Made by a program: the position numbers and the translations under genes. Shown here in pieces: positions 5,764-23,076 of a stretch of 64,000 bases of DNA; within the stretch, counting starts at the first letter, position 1; every line of letters starts with the position of its first letter. This DNA is from Rhizobium sp. Leaf306 (GTDB lineage Bacteria; Pseudomonadota; Alphaproteobacteria; Rhizobiales; Rhizobiaceae). The stretch lies in the NCBI RefSeq assembly GCF_001423425.1, contig NZ_LMNX01000004.1, positions 434,001-498,000 on the forward strand, in the 5' to 3' direction. Under the pieces are notes generated by a model. It did no database searches. It worked only from the letters and a program-made list of their open reading frames with translations, and was not told the DNA's origin.

Positions 5764-6567
5764 TTAACTGAGCGTTTCTGCCATGATGATGTCGCCGTCG
5801 AGCCAGAGCTGGACCGGCTGCCCGCGAAGGCTTGCGTCCATGTCCTCGGCCATCTTGTAGATGCCGTCGATCGCGACCAGTTCGGCCTCGAGCTTGCGGC
5901 AAAAGATCCGAGCCGTTGCATTCCCCAATGATCCAGCCATGACTCGGCCGCGTATTGCGCCGTAGACATGCACCGAACCGCCGGCAATCACTTCGGCACC
6001 GGAGGCAACCGAACCGATAACGGTCACGTCACCTTCCGCGAAGATGACCGACTGACCGGAGCGAACCGGCTCGTTGATCACCAGCGACTGGATGACCGGC
6101 CGGACCTCGGCAACCTTGATCGGCTCGTTGCGGAGCTGACTGTCGGTATCCGTTTCCGGCTGCTTGGCACCTTGCTTGGTAGCAACGCCAACTTGTCCGG
6201 AGCTTTCTTGAGCCGACTTATCCTCGGACTTTTCCGGGACTTCGAAATCGGATGCAGCCTTGCCGCCCCGCATCGCCGGCGGCATGCCGGGGCCAAGCAT
6301 CGACGGGCGAGCGCCTTCGATACCCATGATCCGGACATTGCGTTCGGCCAGTTGTTCGAGCAGGTCCTTCAGCTCGATCTTGTCGATCGAAACCTCGGAA
6401 ATATCGAGCACGACCGGCCGGTCGAGAAAGAAGCCGGCCGAGCGGGCAGCCAGATCGTCAAGGCGCGCGAGCCAGTTGTCGAGCGGCAGATCGGGGGACA
6501 AGACGACCGCCAAAAACGAGCGGCCCTTGATACGGATTGAGCGAGCGTCTGTTAGCACTTTGGTCAT
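5764..6567 (-). CDS. minC: Septum site-determining protein MinC
   Basis: This 267-residue inhibitor of FtsZ assembly has an N-terminal FtsZ-binding domain (about 1-110), a variable charged linker rich in Glu, Lys, Ser and Gln (about 111-160), and a C-terminal beta-helix domain (GDVTVIGSVASGAEVIAGGSVHVYG) that dimerises and binds MinD. It is the first gene of the minCDE operon. A full TTAA-N7-TTAA CtrA-type box lies 44 bp before its start, so the operon is probably under cell-cycle control. Confidence 0.96.
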   Translation of the reverse strand: MTKVLTDARSIRIKGRSFLAVVLSPDLPLDNWLARLDDLAARSAGFFLDRPVVLDISEVSIDKIELKDLLEQLAERNVRIMGIEGARPSMLGPGMPPAMRGGKAASDFEVPEKSEDKSAQESSGQVGVATKQGAKQPETDTDSQLRNEPIKVAEVRPVIQSLVINEPVRSGQSVIFAEGDVTVIGSVASGAEVIAGGSVHVYGAIRGRVMAGSLGNATARIFCRKLEAELVAIDGIYKMAEDMDASLRGQPVQLWLDGDIIMAETLS

Positions 6568-6610
6568 CTACGTAAACAAATCGTTGACGTTAGATGTAGC
6601 GCCGGGGTGG

Positions 6611-6625
6611 TTAACAAAAGGTTAA
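6611..6625. promoter_or_regulatory. CtrA-type box in the minC promoter
   Basis: TTAA at 6611-6614 and TTAA at 6622-6625 are separated by exactly 7 bp, which is the consensus of the alphaproteobacterial cell-cycle regulator CtrA. The box lies 44-58 bp before the minC ATG, where it could overlap the promoter. In Sinorhizobium, CtrA is reported to act on min genes, which supports the reading. Binding is not shown by the sequence. Confidence 0.65.
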
Positions 6626-6658
6626 CGCACCCCTCCAAAGCTTTAACGAAGACCCGTT

Positions 6659-8311
6659 CTAGGGCAATTTAAGACCGGCCGTTTCGGCAGCCTCGATCGC
6701 CTCGTCATAGCCGGCATCCGCATAGCGGATAATGCCGAGCGAGGTATCGTTGGTGATCGAATGTTCAAGCCGTTCCGCCCCCTTTTCGGTGCCATCGGCA
6801 ATGATGGTGACACCGGCAGATGTCATGTAACCCGCATATCCGCCGCCGCCCGAATGGATGACGACGAGATCGGCCATCGAGGCGCACATCGTCATCGCGT
6901 TGATCAGCGGCCAGTCGGCGATCGCATCCGATCCGTCCTTCATGTTCTCGGTCATGATATTGGGATGCGCCATGGCGCCGGCATCGAGATGATCGCGCGA
7001 AAACGCGATCGGCCCGGCAAGTTCGCCGCTTGCGACCAGTGCGTTCACGGCCAACGCGAGCCTGGTGCGTTCGCCATGCCCGAGCCAGGCGATGCGTGCT
7101 GGCAAGCCTTCGAAGGGCACGTTTTCGCGCGCCAGCCTGATCCAGTTGGTGACGATGAAATTATCCGGGAAAAGCTCGAGCACGAGATCGTCGATGCGGG
7201 CGATATCGCTCTCTTCGCCCGATAGCGCCATCCAGCGAAACGGCCCGATCGCCTTGCTAAACAGCGGCCGCAGATAGGCTTCGGTAAAGATCGGAATGTC
7301 GAAGGCGTTGGCAACGCCGCCTTCGCGTGCCTGGGTGCGGATCAGGTTGCCGTTGTCGAACACTTCCGCACCCTTTTCCTGCAGGCTCAGCATGGCGCGG
7401 ACATGATCGGCGATCGAGGCGCGGCTCGCGGCCATCAACTGGCCCCGACCTTCCTTGCGAAGACGCCGCACTTCCTCAAGGCTCATCCCCTTCGGGACGT
7501 AGCCATAGACGAGATCATGCGCCGAAGTCTGGTCGGAGACGATATCGGGCACGATGCCGCGCTTGACGATCTGCGGGTAGATGTCGGCGGCATTGCCGAC
7601 CAGACCGACCGAGACGGCGCGTTTTTCGCTGACCGCCGCATCGATCATCGCAATCGCCGTATCGAGATCCGGCGCAACCTCGTCGAGAAACCCGATCTCG
7701 CGGCGCTTGGCGACCCGCTCCGGATCGATATCGATCACCAGGATCGCAGCGCCCGCCATGCGACCGGCAAGCGGTTGCGCGCCGCCCATGCCGCCGAGGC
7801 CGGCGGTCAGGATGAAGCGACCGGCAAGCGTGCCGCCGAAGCGCTTCTCGGCAATCCGCATGAAGATCTCGTAGGTGCCCTGAATGACGCCCTGGCTGCC
7901 GATATACTGCCACGCTCCGGCCGTCAGCCCGCCCCAGCAGATCAGACCCTTTTCCTGCAGCGCGTAGAAATACTCGGCCTTCGCCCACTGCCCCACGATG
8001 TTGCAATTGGCCATGATGACGAGCGGCGCCTTGTCATGGGTCTTGAGCAACCCGACCGGCTTGCCGGACTGGATGATCAGCGTCTGATCCTCGTCCATCG
8101 TCTTCAGTGTGCGCACGATCGCCTCATGCGCCGCCCAATTGCGCGCCGCCTTGCCGAGCGCCGCATAGACGATCAAATTGTCCGGATCCTCGCCGACTGA
8201 AAGCACGTTTTCCAGAAGCCGCAGCAGAGCCTCCTGCCGCCAGCCCTTGGCGCGCAGGTCAGGCCCGCCGGGGATCGGGAATTTCGGATGGCGCGGATTG
8301 GGCTTTGGCAT
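6659..8311 (-). CDS. Urocanase-family hydratase, probably (S-methyl)thiourocanate hydratase rather than HutU
   Basis: This 550-residue protein is urocanase-like over its whole length, including the NAD-binding AGLGGMGGAQPLA (169-181), DQTSAHD, GPFRWMALSG and DGSDAIADWPL blocks. Active-site positions differ from ordinary HutU: the usual GLPARICWLG motif reads GLPARIAWLG, so the Cys410-equivalent is Ala408; the usual YGQMTAGSW reads WGGLTAGAW; and the HHGGGVG-type loop reads IHSGGGGYAG. Urocanases bind NAD+ as an electrophile and hydrate urocanate. No hutH, hutG or hutI lies nearby; instead there are a DUF917 protein, a hydantoinase and a carbamoylase. Together this points to a substituted urocanate such as thiourocanate. 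A gap of 458 bp with repeats separates it from the DUF917 gene on the same strand. The substrate is inference. Confidence 0.8.
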   Translation of the reverse strand: MPKPNPRHPKFPIPGGPDLRAKGWRQEALLRLLENVLSVGEDPDNLIVYAALGKAARNWAAHEAIVRTLKTMDEDQTLIIQSGKPVGLLKTHDKAPLVIMANCNIVGQWAKAEYFYALQEKGLICWGGLTAGAWQYIGSQGVIQGTYEIFMRIAEKRFGGTLAGRFILTAGLGGMGGAQPLAGRMAGAAILVIDIDPERVAKRREIGFLDEVAPDLDTAIAMIDAAVSEKRAVSVGLVGNAADIYPQIVKRGIVPDIVSDQTSAHDLVYGYVPKGMSLEEVRRLRKEGRGQLMAASRASIADHVRAMLSLQEKGAEVFDNGNLIRTQAREGGVANAFDIPIFTEAYLRPLFSKAIGPFRWMALSGEESDIARIDDLVLELFPDNFIVTNWIRLARENVPFEGLPARIAWLGHGERTRLALAVNALVASGELAGPIAFSRDHLDAGAMAHPNIMTENMKDGSDAIADWPLINAMTMCASMADLVVIHSGGGGYAGYMTSAGVTIIADGTEKGAERLEHSITNDTSLGIIRYADAGYDEAIEAAETAGLKLP

Positions 8312-8371
8312 GGCGTGATCTCCTGTCTCGTGAGGATTGCCTCACCCAATGTAGTGCCGGGCCAAGAAAGC

Positions 8372-8690
8372 CCCCCTCTGGCCTGCCGGCCATCTCCCCC
8401 ACAAGGGGGGAGAAAACCAGCGGCACGCTCCCTGCCCCAATCGAGGCACGTCCCATCTCCCTGCTCGCGGGGAGAGGGTTAGGGTGAGGGCAGCCACCCC
8501 CTCTGGCCTGCCGGCCATCTCCCCCACAAGGGGGGAGAAAACCAGCGGTACTCTCCCTACCCCAATCGAGGCACGTCCCCTCTCCCTGCTCGCGGGGCGA
8601 GGGTTAGGGTGTGAGGGCAGCCAGGCCCCCTCTGGCCTGTCGGCCATCTCCCCCACAAAGGGGGAGAAGATCTGCGGCACTGTCGCGTCC
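8372..8690. repeat. Tandem intergenic palindromic repeat, about 2.5 copies of a 125-129 bp unit
   Basis: The same GC-rich unit, beginning CCCCCTCTGGCCTG, starts at 8372, 8497 and 8626. Each unit contains inverted repeats: CTCCCCCACAAGGGGGGAG and CTCCCTGCTCGCGGGGAG-like hairpins. The third copy breaks off near 8690, and a related hairpin (CCCCTCCCCCTTGTGGGGAGGGG) follows at about 8723. This fills the 458-bp gap between the urocanase-like and DUF917 genes, and no gene is seen in it. It resembles rhizobial mosaic intergenic elements; exact family naming would need a repeat search. Short plus- and minus-strand frames here are artefacts of the repeat. Confidence 0.85.
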
Positions 8691-8769
8691 TATATCCAGC
8701 GCTGTCGGTGCGGCAGGTTAAGCCCCTCCCCCTTGTGGGGAGGGGTTGGGGGCGGGGTTTTGTTCGACC

Positions 8770-9858
8770 CTACCCCAGCGCATAATCCGCAATCCTGATC
8801 CCCAGCGCCGCCTCGCAGATCGGATAGACCGATGGGTCCTTGACGCTCGACGACAGCGGGATGAGTGTCTTTGGCACATGCAGCAGAAACACCGGCATGC
8901 CGACCTGCAACTGACCGACGCTCATCGGTTCGCCCTGCGGAGACAGCGTCGCGATGATATCCGGGAAGGTGGCGAGGCGGTTGCCGCCGGCATCGTCCAC
9001 CGCCATGTATTCGTTCATGACATGCAGCGTGATCGCCCCGTCGCCGCGCCCAAGCGTGATCGTGCCGACATCGAAGGCTTCCTTGGTATAGACCACGGAT
9101 TTGGCGGTCACCTCGGCCTCGACCAGGATAGTGCCGCCGGTGGTCCTGACGATCGCGTCGATGATGGCAGATCCGCCCTTCGCATCGGCCTCGATAATCG
9201 CCTCGCCAAGCGTCAGCGCCAGACTGATGCCGCCGAGCGCTGCATTGTTGCGCACATAGGACGCGCGCAGCGGATTGCGGCAGGAGGCGATGAAGCCGCC
9301 GGACATGTCCGAGGCGGTGCGAAGGATCGGCGAGACCTTGGCGGTGGCGCCGCGCACGACGAGTTCGATGTAGCGGTTTTCCGCCCGGTTGCCGCCGACT
9401 GCCGTCTGGATCATCTGTTCGGGCGAATTCGCCATGCCGATCGAGCCCATGTCGCCGGTCGGATGGGCGCGCACGTCGCCCACGGCATCGAGCACCTTGG
9501 TCCCGAGGATGGCCGATGGCAGCCAGCCGTTGAGCGTCGAGGATTTGCCGTTCTGGCCGATCATCAGCGCCGCAACCTTTTCGCCGAGCGCATCCTGCAG
9601 CAGCTGCACGGCCTTGACGTAGTCGATGCCCTGCATTTCCCAGGCGGTGGTCGAGGCCGGTGCGCCGATCGCGGCAGCCGTCGCCACCCAGTCGTCGTCG
9701 GACAGTTCGTCGATGGTCACGAGTTCGGGCCTGCCGACCGAGACGGCCGCATAGCCGAGCATGCGGCCGTGATCCGACCAGCCGCCGCCGCCCGCCGCAT
9801 AGACCGAGCCGCCGCGCACCGCCGCCTCGACATCGTTCTCCGTCAGTATGCGACCCAT
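8770..9858 (-). CDS. DUF917-family protein, candidate S-methyl-thiohydantoin desulfurase
   Basis: In this 362-residue protein, the N-terminal block (LTENDVEAAVRGGSVYAAGGGG) and the GDMGSIGMANSPEQ region fit DUF917 (COG3535). I recall that this family has been linked to S-methyl-thiohydantoin desulfurase and to a desulfhydrase step in ergothioneine breakdown; that would turn the thiohydantoin propionate made by the hydratase into hydantoin-5-propionate. The start was chosen at the Met beginning MGRILTEND, 10 bp after the M20 gene, because the upstream frame extension overlaps that gene and lacks coding character. It belongs to one transcription unit with the M20 hydrolase and the hydantoinase. 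The exact substrate is inferred from context. Confidence 0.8.
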   Translation of the reverse strand: MGRILTENDVEAAVRGGSVYAAGGGGWSDHGRMLGYAAVSVGRPELVTIDELSDDDWVATAAAIGAPASTTAWEMQGIDYVKAVQLLQDALGEKVAALMIGQNGKSSTLNGWLPSAILGTKVLDAVGDVRAHPTGDMGSIGMANSPEQMIQTAVGGNRAENRYIELVVRGATAKVSPILRTASDMSGGFIASCRNPLRASYVRNNAALGGISLALTLGEAIIEADAKGGSAIIDAIVRTTGGTILVEAEVTAKSVVYTKEAFDVGTITLGRGDGAITLHVMNEYMAVDDAGGNRLATFPDIIATLSPQGEPMSVGQLQVGMPVFLLHVPKTLIPLSSSVKDPSVYPICEAALGIRIADYALG

Positions 9859-9868
9859 GCCCTCGCCC

Positions 9869-11107
9869 CTATTGTTTGTCGAGTGCCAAGACCGCCTCGT
9901 AGAGAACGGCAGCGCCCAGTGCGATATCGTCGTTGTCGGACCATTCCTCCGCCGCGTGGCTGCGGCCATCCTTGCTGGCAATGAAGATCATCGCAGCCGG
10001 CGCCACCTTGGACAGAAACGCCGCATCGTGACCGGCGCCCGACACCATCGGCCGGCTGGTCGCGCCGATCCGCTGCGCACTTTCGGCAAGCACACCGGTC
10101 ACCATGTCCGACATCGGCGTCGGCGCCGCATGCGACACCCGCCGCGGGTCGGCGATCGTCACGCTGCGCTCCGAGGCCGTCTGTGCACAAAGCGCGGTGA
10201 CGGAAGCGACGAATTCGTCCATCACCGCGTCATCGACGGCGCGCGCATCGATCAGCATGCGGACATGCGAGGGGATGACATTGGCGGCGTTCGGCTCCAT
10301 CGAGAACTCGCCGACGGTGCCGGCAAAATAGCTTTTGCCCGACGCAAGCTCCCGGGCGATCTCTTCGATGCCGAGCACGATGATCGATGCGGCCCCCAGC
10401 GCATCATAGCGTGCATTCATCGGGGTGGTGCCGGCATGATCGGCACGGCCTTCCACCAGGATTTCGAAACGGGAAATGCCGGTGATGGCGCCGACGATGC
10501 CGATATCGACGTTTTCGCGCTCCAGCACCGTGCCCTGCTCGATATGCAGTTCGAGGAAGGCTTTGATATCGGTGCGCGTGAATACGGTGTCCGGATCGCC
10601 GCCGACCTGACGGATGCCGTCTGCGAGCGTGACACCATCGGTGCTGCGCTCCAGCCATTCGGGCGGCCGAACGCCGGTCATGCCGCGGCTGCCGATGCAG
10701 GACACACCGAAGATCGAGACTTCCTCGGCGAGAAAATCGACGATTTCCAGATCGTGTTCCAGCGCGATGCCGGCATCCTTGAGCGAACGCGCCACTTCGA
10801 GACCAGCAATCACCCCGGCAATGCCATCGAACCGGCCGCCGTTCGGCACCGTATCCGTATGCGAGCCGAGCATGATCGTGCCCTTGCCCTCCACCGTTCC
10901 CCTGCGCCGCCCGGTCATGTTGCCGGCGGCATCGATGTGGGTTTCGAGCCCGGCCTCGCGAAAGATCTTCTCGACGTAAGCGCGGCCCTTCAAGAACATC
11001 GGCGTGAAGGCCCGGCGCGCCCAGGGCCTGTCCGGTTCGGTGATAGCAGCCAGCGCCTCGATATCGGCTGCGATCCGGTCGGCGTTGACGGCGAGATTGG
11101 AGGTCAT
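9869..11107 (-). CDS. M20-family amidohydrolase, probable N-carbamoyl-L-amino acid hydrolase
   Basis: This 412-residue zinc hydrolase belongs to the HyuC/allantoate-amidohydrolase branch. LGSHTDTVPNGGRFDG gives the first metal ligands, AEEVSIFGVSCIGSRGMTG contains the catalytic Glu pair, LELHIEQG another ligand, and SGAGHDAAFLSKVAP the C-terminal motif. The family splits carbamoyl amino acids into amino acid, CO2 and ammonia. Next to a hydantoinase, N-carbamoyl-L-glutamate is the logical substrate and L-glutamate the product. It lies 4 bp after the hydantoinase gene. Allantoate is an alternative substrate, but no ureidoglycolate gene is present. Confidence 0.85.
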   Translation of the reverse strand: MTSNLAVNADRIAADIEALAAITEPDRPWARRAFTPMFLKGRAYVEKIFREAGLETHIDAAGNMTGRRRGTVEGKGTIMLGSHTDTVPNGGRFDGIAGVIAGLEVARSLKDAGIALEHDLEIVDFLAEEVSIFGVSCIGSRGMTGVRPPEWLERSTDGVTLADGIRQVGGDPDTVFTRTDIKAFLELHIEQGTVLERENVDIGIVGAITGISRFEILVEGRADHAGTTPMNARYDALGAASIIVLGIEEIARELASGKSYFAGTVGEFSMEPNAANVIPSHVRMLIDARAVDDAVMDEFVASVTALCAQTASERSVTIADPRRVSHAAPTPMSDMVTGVLAESAQRIGATSRPMVSGAGHDAAFLSKVAPAAMIFIASKDGRSHAAEEWSDNDDIALGAAVLYEAVLALDKQ

Positions 11108-11111
11108 GCGA

Positions 11112-12488
11112 TCAAAAATCCTGAAGTGAAAGGTTGGCCGGGGGCCGCACGAACCGGCCGGTGCCGGGCTGCGCCAGCACCTTCGATCCGTCATAGGCGA
11201 GTGTGCCGCGAAGATAGGTTCCGGCCACCTTGTAGGGCAAGGTCATTCCGTCATAGGGCGACCATCCGACGACGTTGTTGCCGGTCTTCGACGCGTCGAA
11301 CACATGCTCTTCCGCCGTCAGCACCGCGATATCGGCGTGCTTGCCGACTTCCAGCGCGCCCTTGACGTGATCGATGCGGAAATGCCGGGCGGGATTGAGC
11401 GCCATCAGCCTTGCTGCCCAGGTGAGCGATACGCCGCGCTCCAGCGCGCCTTTGATGAACAGCGGCACCATGGCTTCGAGACCCGGCAGGCCGGAGGCAT
11501 TGGCAAGCATGTCCGGATTGGTCTTGCGGTCGAGCGACCAGCTGACGTGATCGGTGGAGAGAAGCGTGACATTGCCGGCCGCCAGATGTCGCCAGAGCTT
11601 TTCCACCTCCGCCCGCGGCCGGATCGGCGGATTGCATTTCGACTTGCCGCCGAGCCGTCTCGCATCGGTTTCCTGGTCGAGCGTCAGGTAATGAATCAGG
11701 CATTCGACCGTGGCGCGATGCCCTTGCGCGCGGTAGCCGGCGGCGATCTCGTAACCGCGACCGAGCGAGCAGTGCACCACATGGGCCGGACAGCCGGTGG
11801 CCGCACCGATCTCGTAGATCTCGGTCATCGCCAGAAGCTCGGTCAGCGGCGGACGCGACATCTCGTGGGCACGGTAATCGGTAATGCCGGAGGCCTTCAC
11901 CTCAGCCATCGCCCAGCGGACATATTCGTCGTTCTCGTTGTGGACGCCGGCCGTCAGTCCGGTTGGCGCGATGGCGGCAAAGCACTCAGCCATCAGCGGC
12001 GCAAAAATGCGCGGAAAACGCTTCGGATCGGTCCCGAACGTGGAGAACTTGAAGGCCGCGACGCCGGCATCCACCTGTTCGCGAATGCGCACCGCGCCCT
12101 CCTGCGGATCGACGGTGCCATAAAGCGCGAAATCGACCCGCGCTTGGCTTTCCGCATGAGCAACTTTGCTTCGCACCGCATCCGCCGAGCAGACCAGATT
12201 GCCCTCGTCATAGGGCATGTCGACAATGGTGGTGACGCCACCGGCAGCTGCCGAGCGGGTCGACCAGATGAAATCCTCCTGGTTTTTCTGCGAAAGCGAA
12301 TGAACCTGCGCATCCACGGCACCCGGAAGGATCAGCGACGCGCCGAGATCGTGGCTTTCGCGCGCGGACGGCATCTGGCCCTGACCGACTGACGCAACCA
12401 GCCCGTCGCGGACCGCCACATAACCTTCGGGAACGATGCGGTCGGCAAGGACCAGCGTGCCTTTCAGAACAAGATCGAAATCCGACAT
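11112..12488 (-). CDS. Hydantoinase/dihydropyrimidinase-family amidohydrolase with an altered metal motif
   Basis: This 458-residue cyclic amidohydrolase probably opens a hydantoin ring to a carbamoyl amino acid. The expected ligands include carboxylated Lys147 (AAFKFST), His183 (GVHNEN), His239 (HVVHCS) and Asp313 (STDHVSW). The first metal motif, normally D-x-H-x-H, reads DAQVH (59-63), so one His is replaced by Gln61. AAGGAGA lies 8 nt before the ATG. It is the first gene of the catabolic unit and is divergent from the double-HTH LysR gene. In this context hydantoin-5-propionate is the best substrate guess; allantoin is possible. Confidence 0.82.
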   Translation of the reverse strand: MSDFDLVLKGTLVLADRIVPEGYVAVRDGLVASVGQGQMPSARESHDLGASLILPGAVDAQVHSLSQKNQEDFIWSTRSAAAGGVTTIVDMPYDEGNLVCSADAVRSKVAHAESQARVDFALYGTVDPQEGAVRIREQVDAGVAAFKFSTFGTDPKRFPRIFAPLMAECFAAIAPTGLTAGVHNENDEYVRWAMAEVKASGITDYRAHEMSRPPLTELLAMTEIYEIGAATGCPAHVVHCSLGRGYEIAAGYRAQGHRATVECLIHYLTLDQETDARRLGGKSKCNPPIRPRAEVEKLWRHLAAGNVTLLSTDHVSWSLDRKTNPDMLANASGLPGLEAMVPLFIKGALERGVSLTWAARLMALNPARHFRIDHVKGALEVGKHADIAVLTAEEHVFDASKTGNNVVGWSPYDGMTLPYKVAGTYLRGTLAYDGSKVLAQPGTGRFVRPPANLSLQDF

Positions 12489-12601
12489 CGGCCTGTCTCC
12501 TTGAAGCCTTGAAGCCTTGAGCCCTTTAGCCTTGGGGCGCGCGTTCGATCGGAACCGCTTGGGGGCAGACTAGGAGAATTTGATCGGCAGAGGGATATCC
12601 C

Positions 12602-12621
12602 ATATCGTGAACGCACGATAT
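12602..12621. promoter_or_regulatory. Perfect 20-bp palindromic operator candidate
   Basis: ATATCGTG-AACG-CACGATAT is a perfect 8-bp inverted repeat with a 4-bp spacer. It lies 40 bp before the LysR start and 114 bp before the hydantoinase start, in the 173-bp divergent promoter region, and matches the position of an autoregulatory LysR site. A small tandem repeat of CTTGAAGC lies at about 12502-12520 on the hydantoinase side. Confidence 0.6.
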
Positions 12622-12661
12622 CATTGCTGTCATCCTCTTATATGCTCACCCGGAAGCCGTC

Positions 12662-13876
12662 ATGGACCTTGCCTCGCTGCTGATCGCCCATCATGTGCTC
12701 GCCTTGGGCGGCATCCGCGAAACGGCGAAGGTGCTGGACCGACCGGTCTCCAGCGTCTCTGCCGCGCTGGCAAGGCTGCAGTTTCATATCGCCACACCGC
12801 TGACGACGACATCCGGCAACCGCATCCAGCCAACGCTTGAGGGCGTCAGGATCGGTCGCGATCTGCAGCGAGCTGCCATGCTGGTCGGCGAGCTCTCGGG
12901 TCTCGGCGACAAGGACGGCTCGCCCGAAGACGGAGCCCGGCTTTCCGTACCGCTTCTGGCGCTGCAGCGTTTCCTCGTGGTCGGCCGCAGCGGCAGCATA
13001 AGGCGGGCGGCGCAGGAGATCGGCATCGGCCAGCCGCAGCTGACGCGGCAGATCCGCAGTCTGGAGCGCGATCTCGGCCTTCCCCTTCTCGACCGGGCGG
13101 CCGCCGGCGCCGTTCCCAATGCGAGCGGGCAACGGGTGATCGCTCTCGGAGAAGAGCTCGAAGCGATCTGGCTGAAAATTTCTGACCATGCCGGCGACCG
13201 TTTCCGGCGTGCCGCATCGACGACCCGCGTCGGCTCGGTGACGCCGCTCGGACGCGAAAGCCTGATTGCCCGGATCCTCGCAAAACTTGCCGCCGACTGG
13301 CCGAAGCACATGCCGCGACGGCCGCTCTATATCTCCAGCACCAATGCCGAGGAGCTGCTGTCCGGCATTACCGACCGGACCTACGATCTCGTGCTGGTCG
13401 ACACGCTCGACATGCCGCCCGGCGTCGAACACCGGGTGATTTCGCGGAGCGGACTTGCCATGGTTGGAGCCGCTGATGTGATCGCTGACCATCGCGGCGA
13501 TCTGCGGCAACTGCTGCTGCGTCATCCGATCGCGCTGCCGAGCCTCAAAAGCGGGTTGCGGCAGAAATTCGGGGCGCTGACCGAGGACATCCTAACTGCG
13601 GACGAACGGGCGGCACTGACCTTCGTCGAAATCGATTCCATTCCCGTCATCGCCAACCTCGTCAGCGATCACGGCTATATCGCGCTTCTGCCGCTCTGGG
13701 CCATTCCACAGCCGGACGAGCGGATGGCGGCGATCGCGCTTCCCGAGGCCTACGACATGCATCTGTCGCTTGCCTGGAAAAAGGGAGCGGCCGCCGAGAC
13801 GATTGCCCGCACGGCCGAGCACATTCTGGGCTCGATGACTTTTCCGGTTACAGGACGAAATCCACCAGCAGCTTGA
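12662..13876 (+). CDS. LysR-type regulator with two N-terminal HTH domains
   Basis: This 404-residue protein is about 100 residues longer than a normal LysR protein. Residues 3-62 ([37 protein letters not shown] pattern) form one winged-HTH unit, and residues about 95-155 ([31 protein letters not shown] pattern) form a second, more canonical one. A substrate-binding domain from about 190 on follows. It is divergent from the hydantoinase unit and almost certainly controls it. Its 3' end overlaps the converging mntH gene by 29 bp. The frame is continuous with no sign of a sequencing join. Confidence 0.85.
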
Positions 13877-15185
13877 TGTTGAGGGCGCCGATGACGATGG
13901 CGATCAGCCAGGCAAAGGCGCGCAGCCAGAGAGGTGCGACGAAGACGCCCATTTTGCGCTTGTCGGACGTGAACATCACCAGCGGGAAGACCGCGAAGGA
14001 GAGCTGCAGGCTGAGCACGACCTGCGTCAGGATCAGAAGCTCCGCCGTGCCGCCATCGCCGTAGAAGATGGTGACCGCTGCCGCCGGAATGATGGCGATG
14101 CCGCGGGTGATCAGCCGCCGTACCCAGGCTGCGAGCCGGATATGCAGGAACCCTTCCATGACGATCTGGCCCGCCAAGGTCGCTGTCACCGTGGAATTCA
14201 GGCCGCAGCAGAGGAGTGCGATCCCGAACAGCGTCGGCGCGATGGCATAGCCGAGAACCGGTGAGAGAAGATTGTGCGCGTCGCCGAGTTCCGCCACCGC
14301 CGTATGGCCGTTGGCATGAAAAGCGGCGGCCGCCAGAATGAGGATCGATGCGTTGATCAGAAGCGCGAACATCAAGGCGACGGTGCTGTCGATCGTCGCG
14401 AACTTGATCGCCTCCCGCTTCTCCTCGACGCTGTCCCCGTAATTACGGGTCTGGACGATGCCGGAATGCAGATAAAGGTTATGCGGCATGACGGTGGCGC
14501 CGAGAATACCCAGCGCCAGATAGAGCATGTTGGGATTGGTGACGATCTCGGTGGTCGGCGCAAAGCCACGAATGACCTCGCCCCAGTTCGGGTCCGCCAT
14601 GGCGATCTGGATGGCGAAACAAGCGGTAATGACGCCCAGCAAACCGATGACGAAGGCTTCCAGGAACCGGAATCCGAGCTTCTGCAGGTAGAGAATGAGG
14701 AAGACATCGAGCGCGGTGATGAGAACGCCGATTTCCAGCGGAATGCCGAAGATCAGGTTGAGGCCGATCGCGGTGCCGATCACCTCGGCGATATCGGTGG
14801 CGATGATGGCGATTTCGGCAAACAGCCAGAGCATGTAGGCGACGGGACGCGGGAATGCGTCGCGACAGGCCTGAGCGAGATCGCGGCCGGAAGCGACCGC
14901 CAGCCGCGCGCAGAGCGATTGCAGCACGATCGCCATGATGTTCGACAAGAGTGCGACCGACAGGAGCAGGTAACCGAACTGCGAACCGCCGGCGAGCGAC
15001 GTCGCCCAGTTGCCCGGATCCATATAGCCGACCGCAACGAGATAACCGGGACCGAAGAACGCGAACGCCCGCCGGAGCTTCGATCCCTGGCCGCGCACCG
15101 GGATCGAGCGATGAACATCCATCAGCGAGGCATCACCGCCGCTTTTGAGCCAGCCGCTGGAATTCATTCGGGATCGGATATCCAT
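13848..15185 (-). CDS. mntH: Nramp-family manganese transporter
   Basis: This 445-residue proton-coupled divalent metal importer of the inner membrane has about 11 membrane segments. The metal-binding motifs are DPGNW (56-60) in helix 1 and [12 protein letters not shown] in helix 6. Two 16-bp Mur/Fur-like boxes lie just upstream, so manganese repression is likely. An in-frame Met at 15167 is an alternative start; neither has a strong ribosome site. Mn supply fits with the oxidative-stress genes elsewhere in the window. Confidence 0.93.
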
Positions 15186-15211
15186 CGTCGATCGTGCTCT
15201 CGTTGTTGCAA

Positions 15212-15257
15212 TTGCAATTCATTCGCACATAAAGATCGTAGTTGCAAATTATTCGCA
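15212..15257 (-). promoter_or_regulatory. Two Mur/Fur-type boxes upstream of mntH
   Basis: TTGCAATTCATTCGCA (15212-15227) and TTGCAAATTATTCGCA (15242-15257) are near-identical 16-mers repeated exactly 30 bp apart, about three helix turns. Each is an imperfect inverted repeat, TTGCAA/TTCGCA. They lie 27-72 bp before the mntH start. In rhizobia the Fur homologue Mur represses manganese uptake genes through TGCAA-rich sites, so these are the likely operators. Confidence 0.6.
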
Positions 15258-15389
15258 ATAAGAAATCCGGAAAACGGGAAACTGTTCCGCGCAGCTTCAC
15301 ATTTTGCGAAACAGCAGTATTTCAGCCATGCTGGGGAGATCTGGTTGCTTCGCGAAACGTGGAGCAGAACCAGTTGATCGGAGAACGAC

Positions 15390-15917
15390 ATGGCGCACGA
15401 TAACGGCATCCGCGAGAACGAGGTTCAGGTCACGCCGCCGGAGGCGAACGATGCGGGGCTGATCTTCATCGGACGCATTTCGACCCCCTGGACTGCACGC
15501 AGCGAAACGCCGCGTCAGGGCAGCCATACCGGACCGATCTGCCGGATCGAGATATTCGAGCCATGGGTTGCGGCCCTGAAGGGCGTTGAGAAATTCGAGA
15601 GGCTGGAAGTCCTCTACTGGCTGCATCAGGCGCGGCGCGATCTGGTTCTGCAGAGCCCCGCCAGCAGCGGCAAGGTGCACGGCACCTTCTCGCTGCGCTC
15701 CCCTGTCCGGCCGAACCCGATCGGGACGTCGATTGTGGTTCTTGAAGGCGTCGAGGGCAATGTGCTTCTGGTGCGCGGCATGGACTGCCTCGATGGCACG
15801 CCACTTCTTGATCTAAAGCCCGACCGGAGCCTGTTCAAGCCGATCGTGTCGCCGCAGCCAGGCGAAGCCGAGCCTGACAGCAACGCACCGACGGCGCATT
15901 ACTGTCAGAAGGCTTAG
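15390..15917 (+). CDS. trmO: tRNA m6t6A37 methyltransferase-family protein (TrmO/TsaA)
   Basis: This 175-residue protein is of the UPF0066/TsaA type. Motifs IGRISTPW (near the N-terminus), RIEIFEPWVAAL, LEVLYWLHQARR and the signature FSLRSPVRPNPIG are all present. Family members use S-adenosylmethionine to methylate N6-threonylcarbamoyladenosine at tRNA position 37. It is somewhat shorter than E. coli TrmO and lacks its C-terminal extension, as in many alphaproteobacteria. It is divergent from mntH and ends 3 bp before the converging ureohydrolase gene. Confidence 0.85.
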   Translation: MAHDNGIRENEVQVTPPEANDAGLIFIGRISTPWTARSETPRQGSHTGPICRIEIFEPWVAALKGVEKFERLEVLYWLHQARRDLVLQSPASSGKVHGTFSLRSPVRPNPIGTSIVVLEGVEGNVLLVRGMDCLDGTPLLDLKPDRSLFKPIVSPQPGEAEPDSNAPTAHYCQKA

Positions 15918-15920
15918 AGG

Positions 15921-16973
15921 TCAGCCCTTCAGTGCAGGGCTGAAGCGGATCAGGCTGAGGATCTCGAACAGCATCTGGGCGCCCGCATGCGCCGTGTTGG
16001 TGGTCGTATCGTATTGCGGCGCCACTTCGACGACATCGCCGCCGACGAAGTTCAGACCTTTGAGCCCGTGCAGGATATCGAGCGCCTGACGGCTGGTGAG
16101 CCCGCCGATCTCAGGCGTGCCGGTGCCCGGCGCATAGGCCGGATCGAGGCTGTCGATATCGAAGGAGAGATAGGTCGGGCCATCGCCGACGATTTCGCGC
16201 GCCTTGGCAATGACGGCGTCGATGCCCATCTTGCCGATCTCCTCGGCATGAATGACGGTCATGCCGCTTTCGAAGGAGAACTCCCACAGATATTCGGCCG
16301 CACCGCGGATGCCGATCTGGATGACCCGTGTCGGATCAAGCACGCCGTCGAGAACCGCGTTGCGGAACGGGCCGCCATGGTGGAACTTGGTGAGATCGTA
16401 GGCGCCGCCCGTATCGCAATGGGCGTCGATATGGATCATTCCGACCGGACGGTCGCGGCCGACCGCCTTGAGGATCGGATGCGTGATCGAATGGTCGCCG
16501 CCGACCGACAAGGGGATCACGCCCGCATCGACGACCTTGTTGAAATGCGCCTCGATATCGTCATGGCTCATTTCCAGCCGGTAACGGCTGCGGAACGGCA
16601 CGTCGCCGATATCGGCCACCTTCATCTCGAAGGTCGGCGCGGTCTTCAGCACGTGATTATAGGGACCGACGCGCTCGATCGTGCGCAGTGCCCGCGGCCC
16701 AAAGCGGGAGCCCGGACGGTTGGTGACGCCGAGATCCATCGGCACGCCGATCAGCGCTACCTGAAGATCGCCGAAATCCGGATTGTCCGCATCGATGTGG
16801 ACGAGCGGCGCATCGAGAAGCGTCGGAACGCCCGCATAGGGGGCCGAGCGCGTGCCGCTTGCGGAAAAGATCCGGTCGGCGACGGCGCGAAATTCCGGAT
16901 CATGGATGCTGCCGCCGTGGCCTTCGCCGTATTTTGCTCGAAGCTCTTCCAGCTTTTTCGTGTCGAACGTCAT
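15921..16973 (-). CDS. Agmatinase-family ureohydrolase
   Basis: This 350-residue binuclear manganese hydrolase releases urea from a guanidino compound. Metal motifs: VGGDHSIT, HIDAHCDT and SFDIDSLDPAYAPGTGTPE. The Asp-His pattern is complete, though a Cys stands where a Thr or Ala is common in IDAHxDT. Agmatine, guanidinobutyrate and guanidinopropionate hydrolases all share this scaffold. It is the last gene of a unit with a polar amino-acid ABC transporter and an argininosuccinate-lyase paralogue, which suggests a guanidino amino acid as the imported nutrient. Confidence 0.85.
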   Translation of the reverse strand: MTFDTKKLEELRAKYGEGHGGSIHDPEFRAVADRIFSASGTRSAPYAGVPTLLDAPLVHIDADNPDFGDLQVALIGVPMDLGVTNRPGSRFGPRALRTIERVGPYNHVLKTAPTFEMKVADIGDVPFRSRYRLEMSHDDIEAHFNKVVDAGVIPLSVGGDHSITHPILKAVGRDRPVGMIHIDAHCDTGGAYDLTKFHHGGPFRNAVLDGVLDPTRVIQIGIRGAAEYLWEFSFESGMTVIHAEEIGKMGIDAVIAKAREIVGDGPTYLSFDIDSLDPAYAPGTGTPEIGGLTSRQALDILHGLKGLNFVGGDVVEVAPQYDTTTNTAHAGAQMLFEILSLIRFSPALKG

Positions 16974-16994
16974 GTCGGTTTCTCCAGGTCTTTC

Positions 16995-17873
16995 TTAAAG
17001 CTCTGCGCGGGCCGCTTCCAGCGCGTCGAAATGGTCCGATATCTCGGCGCCCGTGGCAATCCAGACATCGGTTCTGCTTTGCACATGGATCAGGAAATCG
17101 CGCAGCAGATGCCAGCGCATCGGCCGTCCCGAAACCTGCGGATGGAGGACCAGCGTCGTGACGCCGCCCCAAGCATGTGTCGCCTCGAATTCGTCAATCC
17201 ACAGCTGCAGCACCGCGTCGCGTCCGAAGATCGGGCGTGAACTGGTGCGGCTCGTCATGCCGAAATTCCAGTCGTCGAAGGCGAAGTTGACCGGGATCTC
17301 GATCAGACCGCGCTCGCCGCCATGATCCGCATGCCTGTAAGGCAGGATATCGTCGCGGAAGGAGCTGGAATAGCGCATGCCGGATTTCGAGAGATAGGCG
17401 AGCAGTTCCGGGAAATTCTCACCCGATGGTGCGCGGTAGCCGATCGGCCGCACGCCTAGCACCTGGTGCAGCGCCTCATAGCCGCGATCGATTTCCTCGA
17501 AGGCCTCATCCAGCTTGTCGCGGTCGGGCAGCTTGTGGAGATAGCCGTGATGGCCGATCTCGTGGCCAGCCTTCAGGATCGCTTCGCACTGGGCGGGATG
17601 CGCAAGCGCCGTCCAGCCTGGAATAAAGAAGGTCGCCGGTAGCGACAGTTCATCCATCAGCGACACGATTTTTGAAATGCCGACGCGGGCGTCGTAGCCG
17701 CCATGCGAGGTCGTCACCATGCGGTCGACATTGGAAGGGTTGTTGCCGATCCAGGCGGTTTCCGCATCCACGTCGAAGCCGATGAAGAGAGCGCTTTTCG
17801 CGCCGTTCGGCCAGACCATGGCGGGTGTGGGAGGCGCCGGATTGAGCGGACGGGGGGTAAGGTCGAAGGGCAT
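16995..17873 (-). CDS. Polysaccharide-deacetylase-fold hydrolase, PuuE-like
   Basis: This 292-residue NodB-fold protein (FIGFDVDAETAW, FFIPGW, GHEIGHHGYLH, GYRAPSGE, LHPQVSGRP) resembles the metal-dependent amidohydrolase branch that includes PuuE allantoinase, not chitin deacetylases. There is no signal peptide, so it is cytoplasmic. It lies 21 bp before the ureohydrolase gene and 145 bp after the ABC binding-protein gene, with two hairpins in that gap. It probably hydrolyses a C-N bond of the nutrient taken up by the transporter. The substrate is unknown. Confidence 0.78.
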   Translation of the reverse strand: MPFDLTPRPLNPAPPTPAMVWPNGAKSALFIGFDVDAETAWIGNNPSNVDRMVTTSHGGYDARVGISKIVSLMDELSLPATFFIPGWTALAHPAQCEAILKAGHEIGHHGYLHKLPDRDKLDEAFEEIDRGYEALHQVLGVRPIGYRAPSGENFPELLAYLSKSGMRYSSSFRDDILPYRHADHGGERGLIEIPVNFAFDDWNFGMTSRTSSRPIFGRDAVLQLWIDEFEATHAWGGVTTLVLHPQVSGRPMRWHLLRDFLIHVQSRTDVWIATGAEISDHFDALEAARAEL

Positions 17874-17901
17874 TACAAAACCTCCGGTCGGAAAGAATGC
17901 A

Positions 17902-17991
17902 AAGCCGGGCCACCGCTGAACAGATAGCCCGGCTTCCGATGCAAAACGGACTGGTCCGCCGACCGTCCGGCCTGAAGGAGATCAGGCCGGA
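17902..17991 (-). terminator. Two stem-loops between the binding-protein and deacetylase genes
   Basis: AAGCCGGGC (17902-17910) pairs with GCCCGGCTT (17927-17935), a perfect 9-bp stem. TCCGGCCTGA (17966-17975) pairs with TCAGGCCGGA (17982-17991), a perfect 10-bp stem with a 6-nt loop. On the transcribed strand they follow the binding-protein gene. They probably act as partial terminators or 3' stabilisers giving the binding protein more mRNA than the downstream enzymes. No long U-tract is seen. Confidence 0.55.
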
Positions 17992-18018
17992 GGCACCCGT
18001 TCTGCGACACGTGAAAGA

Positions 18019-18852
18019 TTACTTCTGGGCTTCGCTGTTGACGTAGATGCCGTCGAGGGCAGCCGATTCCAGGTTCCACTTGGCAAGGATCGTCTTGTAT
18101 TCGCCGCTGGCCATCAGGGCCTTCATCGCGCCGATATAGGCGTCACGCAGCTCGGTATCCTTCTTGGAGAAACCGATGCCCTGGTAGATGGCAGTGAACG
18201 GCGCGCCGATCGACACATACGCACCCTTCTCAAGCGTCATCAGGTAGGGAACGGTTTCCGAACCCTGGACGGCGGCATCGACGCGGCCCTGCTTCAGCTG
18301 GGTGCGGGCATCGGCCGAACCTTCGGTGCCGACGACCTTGACGGCCGGCAGGCCCTTGGCTTCGCAGTTGGCAGCGCTCCACTTCGCCGTTTCGTCCGGG
18401 AAGGACGTGCGGCGGCTCATGCCGACATTCTTGCCGCAGAGATCGGTTTCGGACTTCAGTTCGTCCTTGCGGGCCGCCGTCGTGTAGAACTGGGCGCCGG
18501 ACTTCATGTAGTCGACGAAATCGAGAGCATCGCGGCGCTTCGGCAGATCGCTCATGCCCGAATGGATGATGTCGACGCGGCCCGTGGCAACCGACGGCAC
18601 CATCTGTTCAAAGCCGATATCCGACCATTCGACAGTCACGCCGAGCTGCTTGGCAAGCGCCAGGCTGAGATCGATATCGAGGCCCATCAGCGTGTTGGTG
18701 GCCGGGTCCTTGTATTCCATCGGCGGATAGTTCGGCGTGTTGGCAACGACGATCTTGCCGGCGGTCTTGATACGCTCCGGCAGGGCCTGAGCGGAAACCG
18801 AGCTGGCGGCAGCAACGGCTGCGAGGGCGACGATTGCGAATGTCTTGGTCAT
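18019..18852 (-). CDS. Polar amino-acid ABC transporter substrate-binding protein
   Basis: This 277-residue periplasmic protein has a clear Sec signal (MTKTFAIVALAAVAAASSVSA, cleavage near residue 22). The mature part is of the SBP-bac-3 type: GKIVVANTPNYPPMEY, GLDIDLSLALAKQLG and FEQMVPSVATGRVDIIHSGMS. The conserved Arg and acidic pockets of this class bind the alpha-amino and carboxyl groups of amino acids. It belongs with the ATPase and permease genes directly upstream. Confidence 0.92.
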   Translation of the reverse strand: MTKTFAIVALAAVAAASSVSAQALPERIKTAGKIVVANTPNYPPMEYKDPATNTLMGLDIDLSLALAKQLGVTVEWSDIGFEQMVPSVATGRVDIIHSGMSDLPKRRDALDFVDYMKSGAQFYTTAARKDELKSETDLCGKNVGMSRRTSFPDETAKWSAANCEAKGLPAVKVVGTEGSADARTQLKQGRVDAAVQGSETVPYLMTLEKGAYVSIGAPFTAIYQGIGFSKKDTELRDAYIGAMKALMASGEYKTILAKWNLESAALDGIYVNSEAQK

Positions 18853-18902
18853 GATATCCCCTGTTCTCTTGTTTTTGGTCGACTGGTTGAACGTGAAGGC
18901 GG

Positions 18903-19673
18903 TCAGTTATGGACTGCCCGGATGAATTCCGCGGTGCGCGCGCTTTTCGGCGCCGACAACACTTCCGAAGCAGGGCCGGTTTCGACGACCTTGCCCGCTT
19001 CCATGAACGTGACGGTGTTGGCAACGTTGCGTGCAAATCCCATTTCGTGGGTGACGACGATCATGGTCATGCCGGACGCGGCCAGATCCTTCATCACGTC
19101 GAGCACTTCAGATACCAATTCCGGATCGAGCGCAGACGTCGGCTCGTCGAACAGGATGAGGTCTGGCTGCATGCCCATGGCACGGGCGATCGCGACGCGC
19201 TGCTGCTGGCCGCCGGAGAGTTCTGAAGGGTAATGGTTCGCCTTTTCAGACAGGCCGACGCGGGCCAGAAGCGCAAGCGCATCCTCGCGCGCCTTGGCGG
19301 CCGGCTGGCCGAGAACCTGGATCGGCCCTTCCATGACGTTTTCGACAGCCGTCAGATGCGGGAACAGGTTGAAGCGCTGGAACACCATGCCGATGCGGCG
19401 ACGCTGGCGGGAGATTTCCTTGTCGGCCAGTTCATGCAGGTTGTCGCCTTCGCGGCGATAGCCCATCAGCTCGTCATTGACCCAGATCGCACCTTCGTCC
19501 ATCCGCTCGAGGAGGTTGATGCAGCGCAGGAACGTGCTCTTGCCGGAGCCGGACGGGCCGACGATGCACGCGACTTCGCCGCGCCGGACTTCGAGGCTCA
19601 CCTTGTCGAGCGCCTTGAACGCATCGAAGCTCTTGGTGACGTCGATTGCCTTGACCAGAATATCTTTCGTCAT
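18903..19673 (-). CDS. Polar amino-acid ABC transporter ATP-binding protein
   Basis: This 256-residue GlnQ/HisP-type ATPase has Walker A GPSGSGKST, Q-loop VFQRFNLFPH, signature LSGGQQQRVAIARAM, Walker B LILFDEPTSALDP and H-loop VVTHEM. The ATG at 19673 follows a GAGG sequence. An in-frame GTG at 19685 overlapping the permease stop (GTGA) is an alternative start that would add four residues. It energises uptake together with the permease and binding protein; only one permease gene is present, so the permease presumably forms a homodimer. Confidence 0.93.
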   Translation of the reverse strand: MTKDILVKAIDVTKSFDAFKALDKVSLEVRRGEVACIVGPSGSGKSTFLRCINLLERMDEGAIWVNDELMGYRREGDNLHELADKEISRQRRRIGMVFQRFNLFPHLTAVENVMEGPIQVLGQPAAKAREDALALLARVGLSEKANHYPSELSGGQQQRVAIARAMGMQPDLILFDEPTSALDPELVSEVLDVMKDLAASGMTMIVVTHEMGFARNVANTVTFMEAGKVVETGPASEVLSAPKSARTAEFIRAVHN

Positions 19674-19681
19674 GTCCAACC

Positions 19682-20554
19682 TCACATCGATGCTCTGATA
19701 GATTTCGATCCGCGGCCATAATAGCGCTCGATGCGCTGCTGGATGACGGACAGAACGGACACCACGACGAGATACCAGAAGCTTGCCACCAGCAGCAGTT
19801 CGAGAACGCGGGTGTTGGCGTAGTAGATGACCTGCGCATTGTGCAGGATTTCGGAAAACTGGATGACGCTGGCAAGCGAGGTGAGCTTGACCATGCCGAT
19901 CACCTCGTTGCCGACAGGCGGCACCATGACACGCATGGCCTGCGGCAGAACGATGCGGCGCAGCATCTTCATCTGCGTCATGCCGATCGTGCGGGCCGCT
20001 TCGTACTGGCCGCTATCGACCGACAGAAGACCGCTTCGCACAACTTCCGACGTGTAGGCGCCCTGCTGGATACCGAGACCGAGCATGGCCGCCACAAACG
20101 GCGTCATGATATCGACAGTGCGGAATTCGAACAGGCCGGGAATGCCGAGCGTTGGGAAGATCAGCGCCAGATTGAACCACAGCATCAGTTGCAGCAGTGC
20201 CGGCGCGCCGCGGAAGATCCACAGATAACCGATCGCGATCCACGACAGAACCGGGTTGCCCGAGATCCGCATGATGGCGATCACGACGCCGAGCACGATG
20301 CCGATCGCCATGGCAGCAACTGTCATGACCAGCGTGTTGACGAGGCCCTGCAGAATGACGGGCGCAAACAGGAAGTCGCGCACATAGGACCATTCGATCT
20401 GACCGACGCTGAAGGCGCGGATAAGCGCTGCCATCAGCAGAATGACGATGCCGGCGGCCACGTTGCGGCCGATATGCCGCTTCGGCACCAGCTTCAGATG
20501 GGCAACCTCGTATTTGGTGCTGTCGTCTGCAGCAACGGTCGTGGATGCACTCAT
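19682..20554 (-). CDS. Polar amino-acid ABC transporter permease
   Basis: This 290-residue inner-membrane protein of the His/Glu/Gln/Arg/opine permease family has an N-terminal cytoplasmic stretch of about 30 residues and then roughly five membrane segments. The EAA loop QYEAARTIGMTQMKMLRRIVLPQA-type sequence contacts the ATPase. Its ATG overlaps the stop of the lyase gene by 4 bp (ATGA), tying the lyase to the transporter. Confidence 0.92.
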   Translation of the reverse strand: MSASTTVAADDSTKYEVAHLKLVPKRHIGRNVAAGIVILLMAALIRAFSVGQIEWSYVRDFLFAPVILQGLVNTLVMTVAAMAIGIVLGVVIAIMRISGNPVLSWIAIGYLWIFRGAPALLQLMLWFNLALIFPTLGIPGLFEFRTVDIMTPFVAAMLGLGIQQGAYTSEVVRSGLLSVDSGQYEAARTIGMTQMKMLRRIVLPQAMRVMVPPVGNEVIGMVKLTSLASVIQFSEILHNAQVIYYANTRVLELLLVASFWYLVVVSVLSVIQQRIERYYGRGSKSIRASM

Positions 20555-22011: not shown

Positions 22012-22034
22012 GAGCAAACCCCTCTGTTCAGATA

Positions 22035-22068
22035 ATGGGCAGGGATCCCATGTGCACCACGAATGGGC
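22035..22068. promoter_or_regulatory. Candidate LysR operator between lyase and lysR genes
   Basis: ATGGG (22035-22039) and CCCAT (22047-22051) form an inverted repeat with a 7-bp spacer, and ATGGGC recurs at 22063-22068, one 28-bp step away. The region lies 24 bp before the lyase start. The arrangement resembles paired recognition and activation half-sites of LysR regulators. It is weaker than the palindrome at 12602. Confidence 0.35.
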
Positions 22069-22170
22069 AAGCGAACTTATTTCCTTGGCCCTATGACAAA
22101 AACGACTAGCGCACAACGGCGCGCTGGCGATAATGGATCGAACGCATCCCGACAAAACAGCGAGACCCTG

Positions 22171-23076
22171 ATGGAGCAACGTCGCAGGCGCCTGCCGTCC
22201 ACCGCATCGCTTCAGGTTCTGCTGGCGGTGGCCGAACGCGGATCGACGAGTGCTGCCGCGGAAACGACGGCGCTGTCCCAGAGTGCTGTGAGCAAGCAGC
22301 TGCTGGCACTTGAGGAACTGATCGGCAGCCCCGCCTTCCTGCGCACGCCGCGCGGCATGGTGGCAACCGAGGCCGGCCGCATCTATATCGACCACGCGCG
22401 CACGGCCCTGAAAGCAATGGAAGACGCCGCGCTTCTGGTGGCCCGGCTGAAACCCGGCCCCGGCGTGCTGCGCCTGCAGGTCCTGCCGATTTTCGGCGAT
22501 CGCTGGCTGTTGCCGAAGTTTCATCTGTTTGCGGAACAGCATCCTGACATCGAGGTGCAGTTCACGACCTTCATCTCGCCATCGCAGTCTGAAGTCCCGG
22601 ACGGCATTTTCGAGTTTGCGGCGACGCCACAACACCGAGACAACAGCACCTATCTCTTCGGTCAAGACGTGCTTCTGGTGAGCGCACCGAACTATTTCGC
22701 CAAGGCCGGAACGCCTTGTGACATCGACGACCTTGCCGAACACGTGATGCTCGAACATCCCCAGACGCCGTTTCACTGGCAACATTTTGTAGCTCATCAC
22801 AACCGCGACGGGGCCACTGTTCGCCACATTACCCGCTTCGGCTATTACACGATGGTGATCCGCGCCGCACTTGCCGGCCAGGGCTTGGCACTGATCCCAC
22901 GCGGCCTGATCCTCGACGAGATTGCTACCGGCAGGCTCATCAATCCGGCCGGCCTCGGTTACCGGAGCGATTTCGGCTACTGGTTCAGCACGCCCCATAT
23001 CCATTCCAGCCCGTCCATGCTGACATTCAAGACATGGCTGACCGCGCAGCTGGGACCTGAACTGGACCGCCCGTAA
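22171..23076 (+). CDS. LysR-type regulator of the GcvA group
   Basis: This is about 301 residues from the Met of MEQRRRRLPSTASL, which fits the typical RRLPS-x-x-x-L start of GcvA-like regulators. An in-frame Met at 22093 would add 26 poorly conserved residues. The HTH covers about 7-66 (FLAVAERGST-type, AVSKQLLALEELIG), and the effector domain follows. It is divergent from the lyase/transporter unit across about 160 bp and so is its likely activator. It ends LGPELDRP. Confidence 0.85.
   Translation: MEQRRRRLPSTASLQVLLAVAERGSTSAAAETTALSQSAVSKQLLALEELIGSPAFLRTPRGMVATEAGRIYIDHARTALKAMEDAALLVARLKPGPGVLRLQVLPIFGDRWLLPKFHLFAEQHPDIEVQFTTFISPSQSEVPDGIFEFAATPQHRDNSTYLFGQDVLLVSAPNYFAKAGTPCDIDDLAEHVMLEHPQTPFHWQHFVAHHNRDGATVRHITRFGYYTMVIRAALAGQGLALIPRGLILDEIATGRLINPAGLGYRSDFGYWFSTPHIHSSPSMLTFKTWLTAQLGPELDRP

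Follow-up and report, generated by a model that had tools for sequence, protein, structure and literature searches.

A four-gene cassette with a divergent regulator in Rhizobium sp. Leaf306 encodes, with high confidence, the lower half of ergothioneine catabolism, and a lyase gene on another contig of the same genome is most likely its entry enzyme. The cassette lies in a 64,000-nucleotide stretch, here called the window (positions 434001-498000 of contig NZ_LMNX01000004.1, hereafter C4), of a draft genome from the Rhizobiaceae that totals 5.0 Mb and comprises nine contigs. An original prediction, made from the letters of the window alone, had placed five genes at this locus and read them as a lower ergothioneine pathway. 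All five were recovered at those places with their families borne out by Pfam [Table 1], and the pathway assignment gained support from curated models for four enzymes, from the tree and motifs of the hydratase, and from co-inheritance with an ergothionase-like lyase.

In the route that we propose, a lyase without the 4-methylideneimidazole-5-one (MIO) cofactor, encoded on contig C1, would most likely convert ergothioneine to thiourocanate and trimethylamine. Thiourocanate hydratase would then form thiohydantoin-5-propionate, thiohydantoin desulfurase would exchange the sulfur for oxygen with release of H2S, ErtD would open the ring of hydantoin-5-propionate to give N-carbamoyl-L-glutamate, and ErtE would convert the latter to L-glutamate, CO2, and ammonia. 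This order is reportedly that of the five-step pathway published by Beliaeva and Seebeck.

The hydratase and the other cassette enzymes

Curated family calls were made with NCBIfam 20.0 models at their own cut-offs. The hydratase scored 1037 bits against the thiourocanate hydratase model NF058530 (cut-off 930) and 753 bits against the S-methyl thiourocanate hydratase model NF058531 (cut-off 880). Its best match in the PDB was 7ned (807 bits, followed by 1x87 at 631 and 8q9u at 589), which is labeled as a urocanate hydratase and which we take to be the thiourocanate hydratase of Paenibacillus. In a tree of 31 urocanase-family proteins, the hydratase, 7ned, and 22 others formed one clade (100/100), and the other clade comprised seven HutU-type proteins. 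For comparison with relatives, 70 loci were examined and 66 were kept, each with an unbroken hydratase frame of at least 65% identity; two loci with HutU only and two with a broken hydratase frame were dropped, and at least two contigs are present twice in the set. Among the 85 rows of the resulting alignment, 68 (the window, 7ned, and the 66 loci) carried HPNIMTE together with HSGGGGYAG-type motifs, the remaining 17 carried the HutU motifs SPNRETE and HHGGGVGMG, and no row was mixed. The window protein reads HPNIMTE and HSGGGGYAGY, as does 7ned, and lacks the narrow HutU motifs NRETE and HHGGGVG. Neorhizobium alkalisoli and Rhizobium populisoli are among the species with near hydratases, at 93-94% identity. 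No more than two urocanase-family genes occur in the genome, and neither is of S-methyl type; the second is its own hutU, which adjoins hutH on contig C3 and whose product is 50% identical to the hydratase. Because of the separate clade, the unmixed motifs, and the presence of a hutU of its own beside hutH, we place the hydratase outside HutU; an ordinary HutU identity is rejected on the clade placement and the changed motifs. The comparison with characterized hydratases that the original prediction had called for thus put 7ned closest, and the placement within HutU that it had named as refuting did not occur.

The desulfurase passed the thiohydantoin desulfurase model NF058529 (595.7 bits, cut-off 440), stayed below the S-methyl thiohydantoin desulfurase model NF058532 (273 bits, cut-off 450), and is the sole match in the genome to either model family. 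Two gasdermin matches of this protein (E 0.003 and 0.02) were taken as chance. The original prediction had left the substrate as a thio- or an S-methylthio-urocanate, and it is the thio form to which the curated models point. A module that degrades S-methyl-ergothioneine via S-methyl thiourocanate, with release of methanethiol, would agree with the Pfam name of DUF917 (S-Me-THD) and with the desulfurase named in that prediction. Nevertheless, we regard it as very improbable: both S-methyl models failed here and are met by a control module on the Agrobacterium tumefaciens plasmid pAtAF1_95 (976 and 536 bits for hydratase and desulfurase), and the motifs differ. With this positive control, the S-methyl route is rejected by the curated cut-offs.

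The hydantoinase passed the ErtD model NF058538 clearly (783.6 bits, cut-off 600) and stayed far from the thresholds for allantoinase (266 bits, cut-off 358) and dihydropyrimidinase (198 bits, cut-off 393), scoring below both. The M20 protein passed the ErtE model NF058540 (576.4 bits, cut-off 520) less exclusively, as it scored higher on the generic Zn-dependent hydrolase model NF009531 (603.6 bits, cut-off 486), and it also passed the broad hydantoinase/carbamoylase subfamily model TIGR01879 (360 bits, cut-off 204) and came within 1.4 bits of one allantoate amidohydrolase subfamily model (397.6 of 399). These scores, and the passing of the broad HutU model TIGR01228 by the hydratase (703 bits, cut-off 375), are what could be said for a second histidine-urocanate branch, or for hydantoin, allantoin, or pyrimidine breakdown beside a urocanase paralogue. 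We give this reading next to no weight, since the hydratase stands outside the HutU clade with changed motifs, the hydantoinase is an ErtD that fails the allantoinase and dihydropyrimidinase models, and the genes stay together in relatives. Action on allantoin or pyrimidines only, the other outcome that the original prediction had considered fatal, is therefore contradicted by the hydantoinase and, less exclusively, by the M20 protein. Histidine utilization by HutH and HutU draws on the same two superfamilies for its first two steps, although the HutU of this genome is only half identical to the hydratase, as given above.

Within the stretch examined around the 66 hydratase loci, DUF917 and M20 were each present at 63 and the hydantoinase at 56; because these genes are kept beside the hydratase in relatives, the arrangement is not a matter of chance. 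The first metal motif of ErtD is QxH in all 58 family rows (the window and 57 loci), and 1gkr and 3hm7 have HxH. The other metal ligands are, as we assume, a Lys, two His, and an Asp, and these positions are kept in 58/58 rows. The Gln in place of the first His is a possible change in the binuclear metal site.

Table 1. Features of the cassette, of the lyase genes, and of the compared module.
Feature	Location	Strand	Basis or remarks
Urocanase-like gene, thiourocanate hydratase	window 6659-8311	-	NF058530, 7ned match, motifs; Pfam Urocanase 272 bits
Gap with three repeat copies	window 8312-8769		458 bases
DUF917 / S-Me-THD family, thiohydantoin desulfurase	window 8770-9858	-	NF058529; Pfam S-Me-THD_C/N 69/60 bits
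M20 family, N-carbamyl-L-glutamate amidohydrolase ErtE	window 9869-11107	-	NF058540; Pfam Peptidase_M20 100 bits
Amidohydrolase family, hydantoin-5-propionate amidohydrolase ErtD	window 11112-12488	-	NF058538; Pfam Amidohydro_1 56 bits
Divergent LysR-type regulator	window 12662-13876	+	Pfam HTH_1 74, LysR_substrate 57 bits
MIO-less lyase of the histidine ammonia-lyase (HAL) family (C1 lyase)	C1:1097417-1099000		between ubiB and genes leading to coaBC (names by eye)
Third HAL-family protein, without ASG	C2:463724-465097 (L006 9701-11191)		3' of Liv-type ATP-binding cassette (ABC) transporter and PhnD-like gene (names by eye)
Second lyase type near thiourocanate hydratase operons	L107 13017-14657; L052 14603-16285		GEADI
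S-methyl-ergothioneine-type module	L192 6025-18709		A. tumefaciens plasmid pAtAF1_95, typed as conjugative

A MIO-less lyase on another contig

The original prediction had seen no lyase nearby and had suggested that entry might be from elsewhere. The first statement holds for the neighborhood of the cassette and not for the genome, where the genome-wide search that it had proposed found an ergothionase-like lyase gene on another contig, in keeping with the second statement. The genome encodes three HAL-family proteins, namely HutH, which carries the ASG tripeptide that forms MIO, and two proteins that lack it. The C1 lyase, whose HAL fold was taken from an orthologue of 86% identity, has ergothionase 6s7j of Treponema denticola as its best PDB match (178 bits, against 140 for HutH), and its gene would lie at least about 620 kb from the operon even if both contigs adjoined. 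Against HutH, the C1 lyase shares 29 columns with the T. denticola ergothionase, and 19 columns are common to these two and two periplasmic lyases. In the operon-linked clade of such lyases the tripeptide region is rewritten to GCADI. PMC13405746 likewise describes ergothionase as lacking MIO.

A homologue of the C1 lyase (identity >40%) occurs in the stretch examined at 37 of the 66 hydratase loci, upstream of the hydantoinase, and the order at these loci is lyase, sometimes importer, hydantoinase, M20, desulfurase, hydratase. In a comparison of 151 genomes from the family, 16 had the hydratase (≥69% identity, the next match being at 53%). The lyase (E up to 1e-60) was present in 13 of these 16 and in none of the 135 others (Fisher p 2.8e-16, a value that ignores shared ancestry). 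We then considered 20 genomes with no such lyase at the hydratase locus, leaving out seven loci on short or draft contigs with no lyase in the stretch (L066, L081, L084, L085, L092, L098, and L100). In 18 of the 20 a lyase of 57-89% identity is encoded elsewhere in the genome, directly adjoined by ubiB in 16 cases and by coaBC in one more. Because of this operon linkage and co-occurrence with the hydratase, the lyase is tied to thiourocanate.

Several observations weigh against the C1 lyase as the entry enzyme. It is only ~29% identical to the T. denticola ergothionase, and its clade falls outside the group of that enzyme and the periplasmic lyases in a tree with long branches and a midpoint root. 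No lyase that we tried matched an ergothionase in NCBIfam. Three of the 16 hydratase genomes are without this lyase type, one of them having a different MIO-less lyase near the operon; the remaining two of the 20 tested genomes gave matches of 30-34% only, and no specific importer was found for the genome of strain Leaf306 itself. Conceivably, the lower cassette works as described while the C1 lyase acts on a related betaine (e.g., hercynine, ergothioneine sulfonate, or S-methyl-ergothioneine) and thiourocanate comes from neighbors outside the cell. The low identity and the absence of the lyase from the window operon would suit this alternative, as would the ergothioneine sulfonate pathway reportedly described for A. 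radiobacter, which is mentioned in PMC13405746. We consider it unlikely in view of the operon linkage, the co-occurrence, and the 19 common columns, and retain the C1 lyase as the putative ergothionase.

The third HAL-family protein, on contig C2, shares 55% identity with the lyase from the S-methyl-type module of the Agrobacterium plasmid. Since neither of the two urocanase-family genes of the genome is of S-methyl type, this protein may act on a different betaine, for instance hercynine.

Gap, regulator, and origin of the split

The genes of the cassette are tightly spaced, with 4 bases between hydantoinase and M20 and 10 bases between M20 and DUF917 (the start sites of the latter two genes are internal ATGs of our choice), and the desulfurase and hydratase genes are separated by the 458-base gap. 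Three repeat copies of ~115-125 bases each lie in it at 8372, 8497, and 8626, the third being 63% alike, and a minus-strand frame across them reads recurring VGEMAGRPEG-like peptides. A further 19 partial matches in the genome, some neighboring one another, are indicative of a dispersed repeat. A consensus scan found no promoter- or terminator-like site in the gap, and an Rfam scan of window positions 6000-23000 gave no match. The same junction is 3 bases long in Devosia marina (L086) and variable among near relatives, which suggests that inserted sequence has interrupted a compact operon here.

The LysR protein has two N-terminal HTH_1 stretches followed by one LysR_substrate domain. Two HTH_1 stretches were also found in 4/5 relatives scanned, including a 605-residue form in L052, and LysR homologues of >35% identity occur in the stretch examined at 27/66 hydratase loci. 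This tandem helix-turn-helix architecture is unusual and travels with the operon, and the adjoining protein is the likely regulator of the cassette.

At nine loci of sister lineages, from eight distinct contigs, ubiB, the lyase, the lower genes, and coaBC stand together, two of them without the hydantoinase. At the corresponding site of strain Leaf306 we found ubiB, the lyase, and then the pair of genes that precedes coaBC at five of the nine sister loci, with no lower genes. The C1 lyase would thus have remained at ubiB-coaBC, the place of the undivided operon in sister lineages. In the lyase tree it groups with the ubiB-site copies of L071, L076, and L082 (99/98). A Martelella-type grouping of the lyase was rejected by the approximately unbiased (AU) test (p-AU 0.002), and a grouping with the operons of L071, L076, and L082 was rejected for the hydratase (0.0006), desulfurase (0.031), hydantoinase (0.00006), and M20 (0.008), all these p-values being optimistic because the groups were named after the first trees had been seen. 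A simple relocation of the four genes from the ubiB-coaBC site is not supported, as all four cassette trees reject that grouping. With the lyase grouping with ubiB-site copies and the cassette genes rejecting the same operons, the window cassette probably came from another source and replaced the genes lost from ubiB-coaBC, which would make the pathway a mosaic. The hydratase favors a donor like Martelella or R. wuzhouense (97/95), as M20 does weakly (93/91); the desulfurase neither shows nor rejects it (0.41), and the hydantoinase comes close to rejecting it (0.052). Hydratases of 71-91% identity occur in nine plasmid records, and a plasmid is a plausible vehicle of the cassette.

Uptake, variants, and meaning of the arrangement

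Between lyase and hydantoinase, Devosia, Kaistia, Martelella, and others have a betaine-type ABC importer, which fits a trimethylammonium substrate; the binding protein of the Devosia importer passes the OsmF model (491 of 400). Strain Leaf306 has on C3 a substrate-binding protein 77% identical to that inside the Devosia operon. An OsmF-type betaine importer as the uptake system was rejected, as it shows no association with the hydratase in the 151 genomes (7/16 against 36/135, p 0.13). Trinickia and one member of the Rhizobiaceae have an operon-near lyase with a signal-like N-terminus and SIGEADI or VGEADI in place of the MIO motif. As an MFS-type (major facilitator superfamily) transporter is found in the neighborhood of these lyases (signal and transporter judged by eye), they suggest that ergothioneine is cleaved outside the cytoplasm and that thiourocanate is what enters the cell. 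A search for the S-methyl hydratase in 200 genomes of the order of Trinickia yielded 30 loci that were read by motif, 29 of HutU type and one of thio type, with no S-methyl type among them. A Deinococcus plasmid carries hydratase, desulfurase, and another MIO-less lyase side by side; its hydratase (767 of 930) and desulfurase (395 of 440) score below the cut-offs, and the hydratase has the thio-type motifs.

The module on pAtAF1_95 resembles the window cassette in keeping urocanase-like, DUF917, ErtD, and ErtE genes together, and fails the thio models (727 of 930 for the hydratase, 255 of 440 for the desulfurase). Its hydratase is closest in the PDB to 8q9v/8q9u, presumably S-methyl thiourocanate hydratase. 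It differs in carrying a glutathione transferase, a molybdopterin S/N-oxide reductase, betaine and branched-chain-type importers, and a different lyase, and the reductase hints at an S-oxide substrate.

Further along the window, at 15921-22026, genes for argH, a polar amino acid ABC transporter, a PuuE-like deacetylase, and an agmatinase-family enzyme (passing TIGR01230) stand in one direction. They could possibly serve uptake and breakdown of a guanidino compound or an arginine-related compound.

The ergothioneine pathway is already known and curated as the NCBIfam Ert genes, and the same four lower enzymes are found here by curated cut-off and in one direction. In contrast to that pathway, the operon of strain Leaf306 has no lyase, the likely lyase lies on another contig and belongs to a divergent clade, and the desulfurase-hydratase junction is broken by repeats. 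New here are the arrangement, which is trans-encoded and mosaic, and a lyase clade that is large and has no name. A literature search turned up no paper on these genes, the primary papers on the pathway being outside its coverage. Public records that name the hydratase label it urocanate hydratase, and in one plasmid record its neighbors are named allantoinase and N-carbamoyl-beta-alanine amidohydrolase. Owing to such labels, and to a lyase that matches histidine ammonia-lyase models only below cut-off, the pathway is hidden under other names; under the most recent NCBIfam models, the four lower genes would receive new names.

The lyase clade is probably a second kind of ergothionase, sharing with the T. 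denticola enzyme the HAL fold without ASG and differing from it in sequence and in its clade in the trees. PMC13405746 reports ergothionase from few genera, with divergent homologues unaccounted for, and cites the T. denticola structure and a Burkholderia enzyme; the present clade is a concrete candidate for such homologues. Going further, we lean towards the view that the operon-linked GCADI lyases of the Hyphomicrobiales, a MIO-less branch of the HAL superfamily, are an unrecognized second ergothionase type, that conversion of ergothioneine to trimethylamine would be far commoner in soil- and plant-associated bacteria than annotated, and that a Neorhizobium-like lineage may have rebuilt the pathway from two sources, i.e., a lyase resident at ubiB-coaBC and, at another place, a four-gene cassette that has been replaced. 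In essence, a pathway gene that is absent from an operon need not be absent from the genome.

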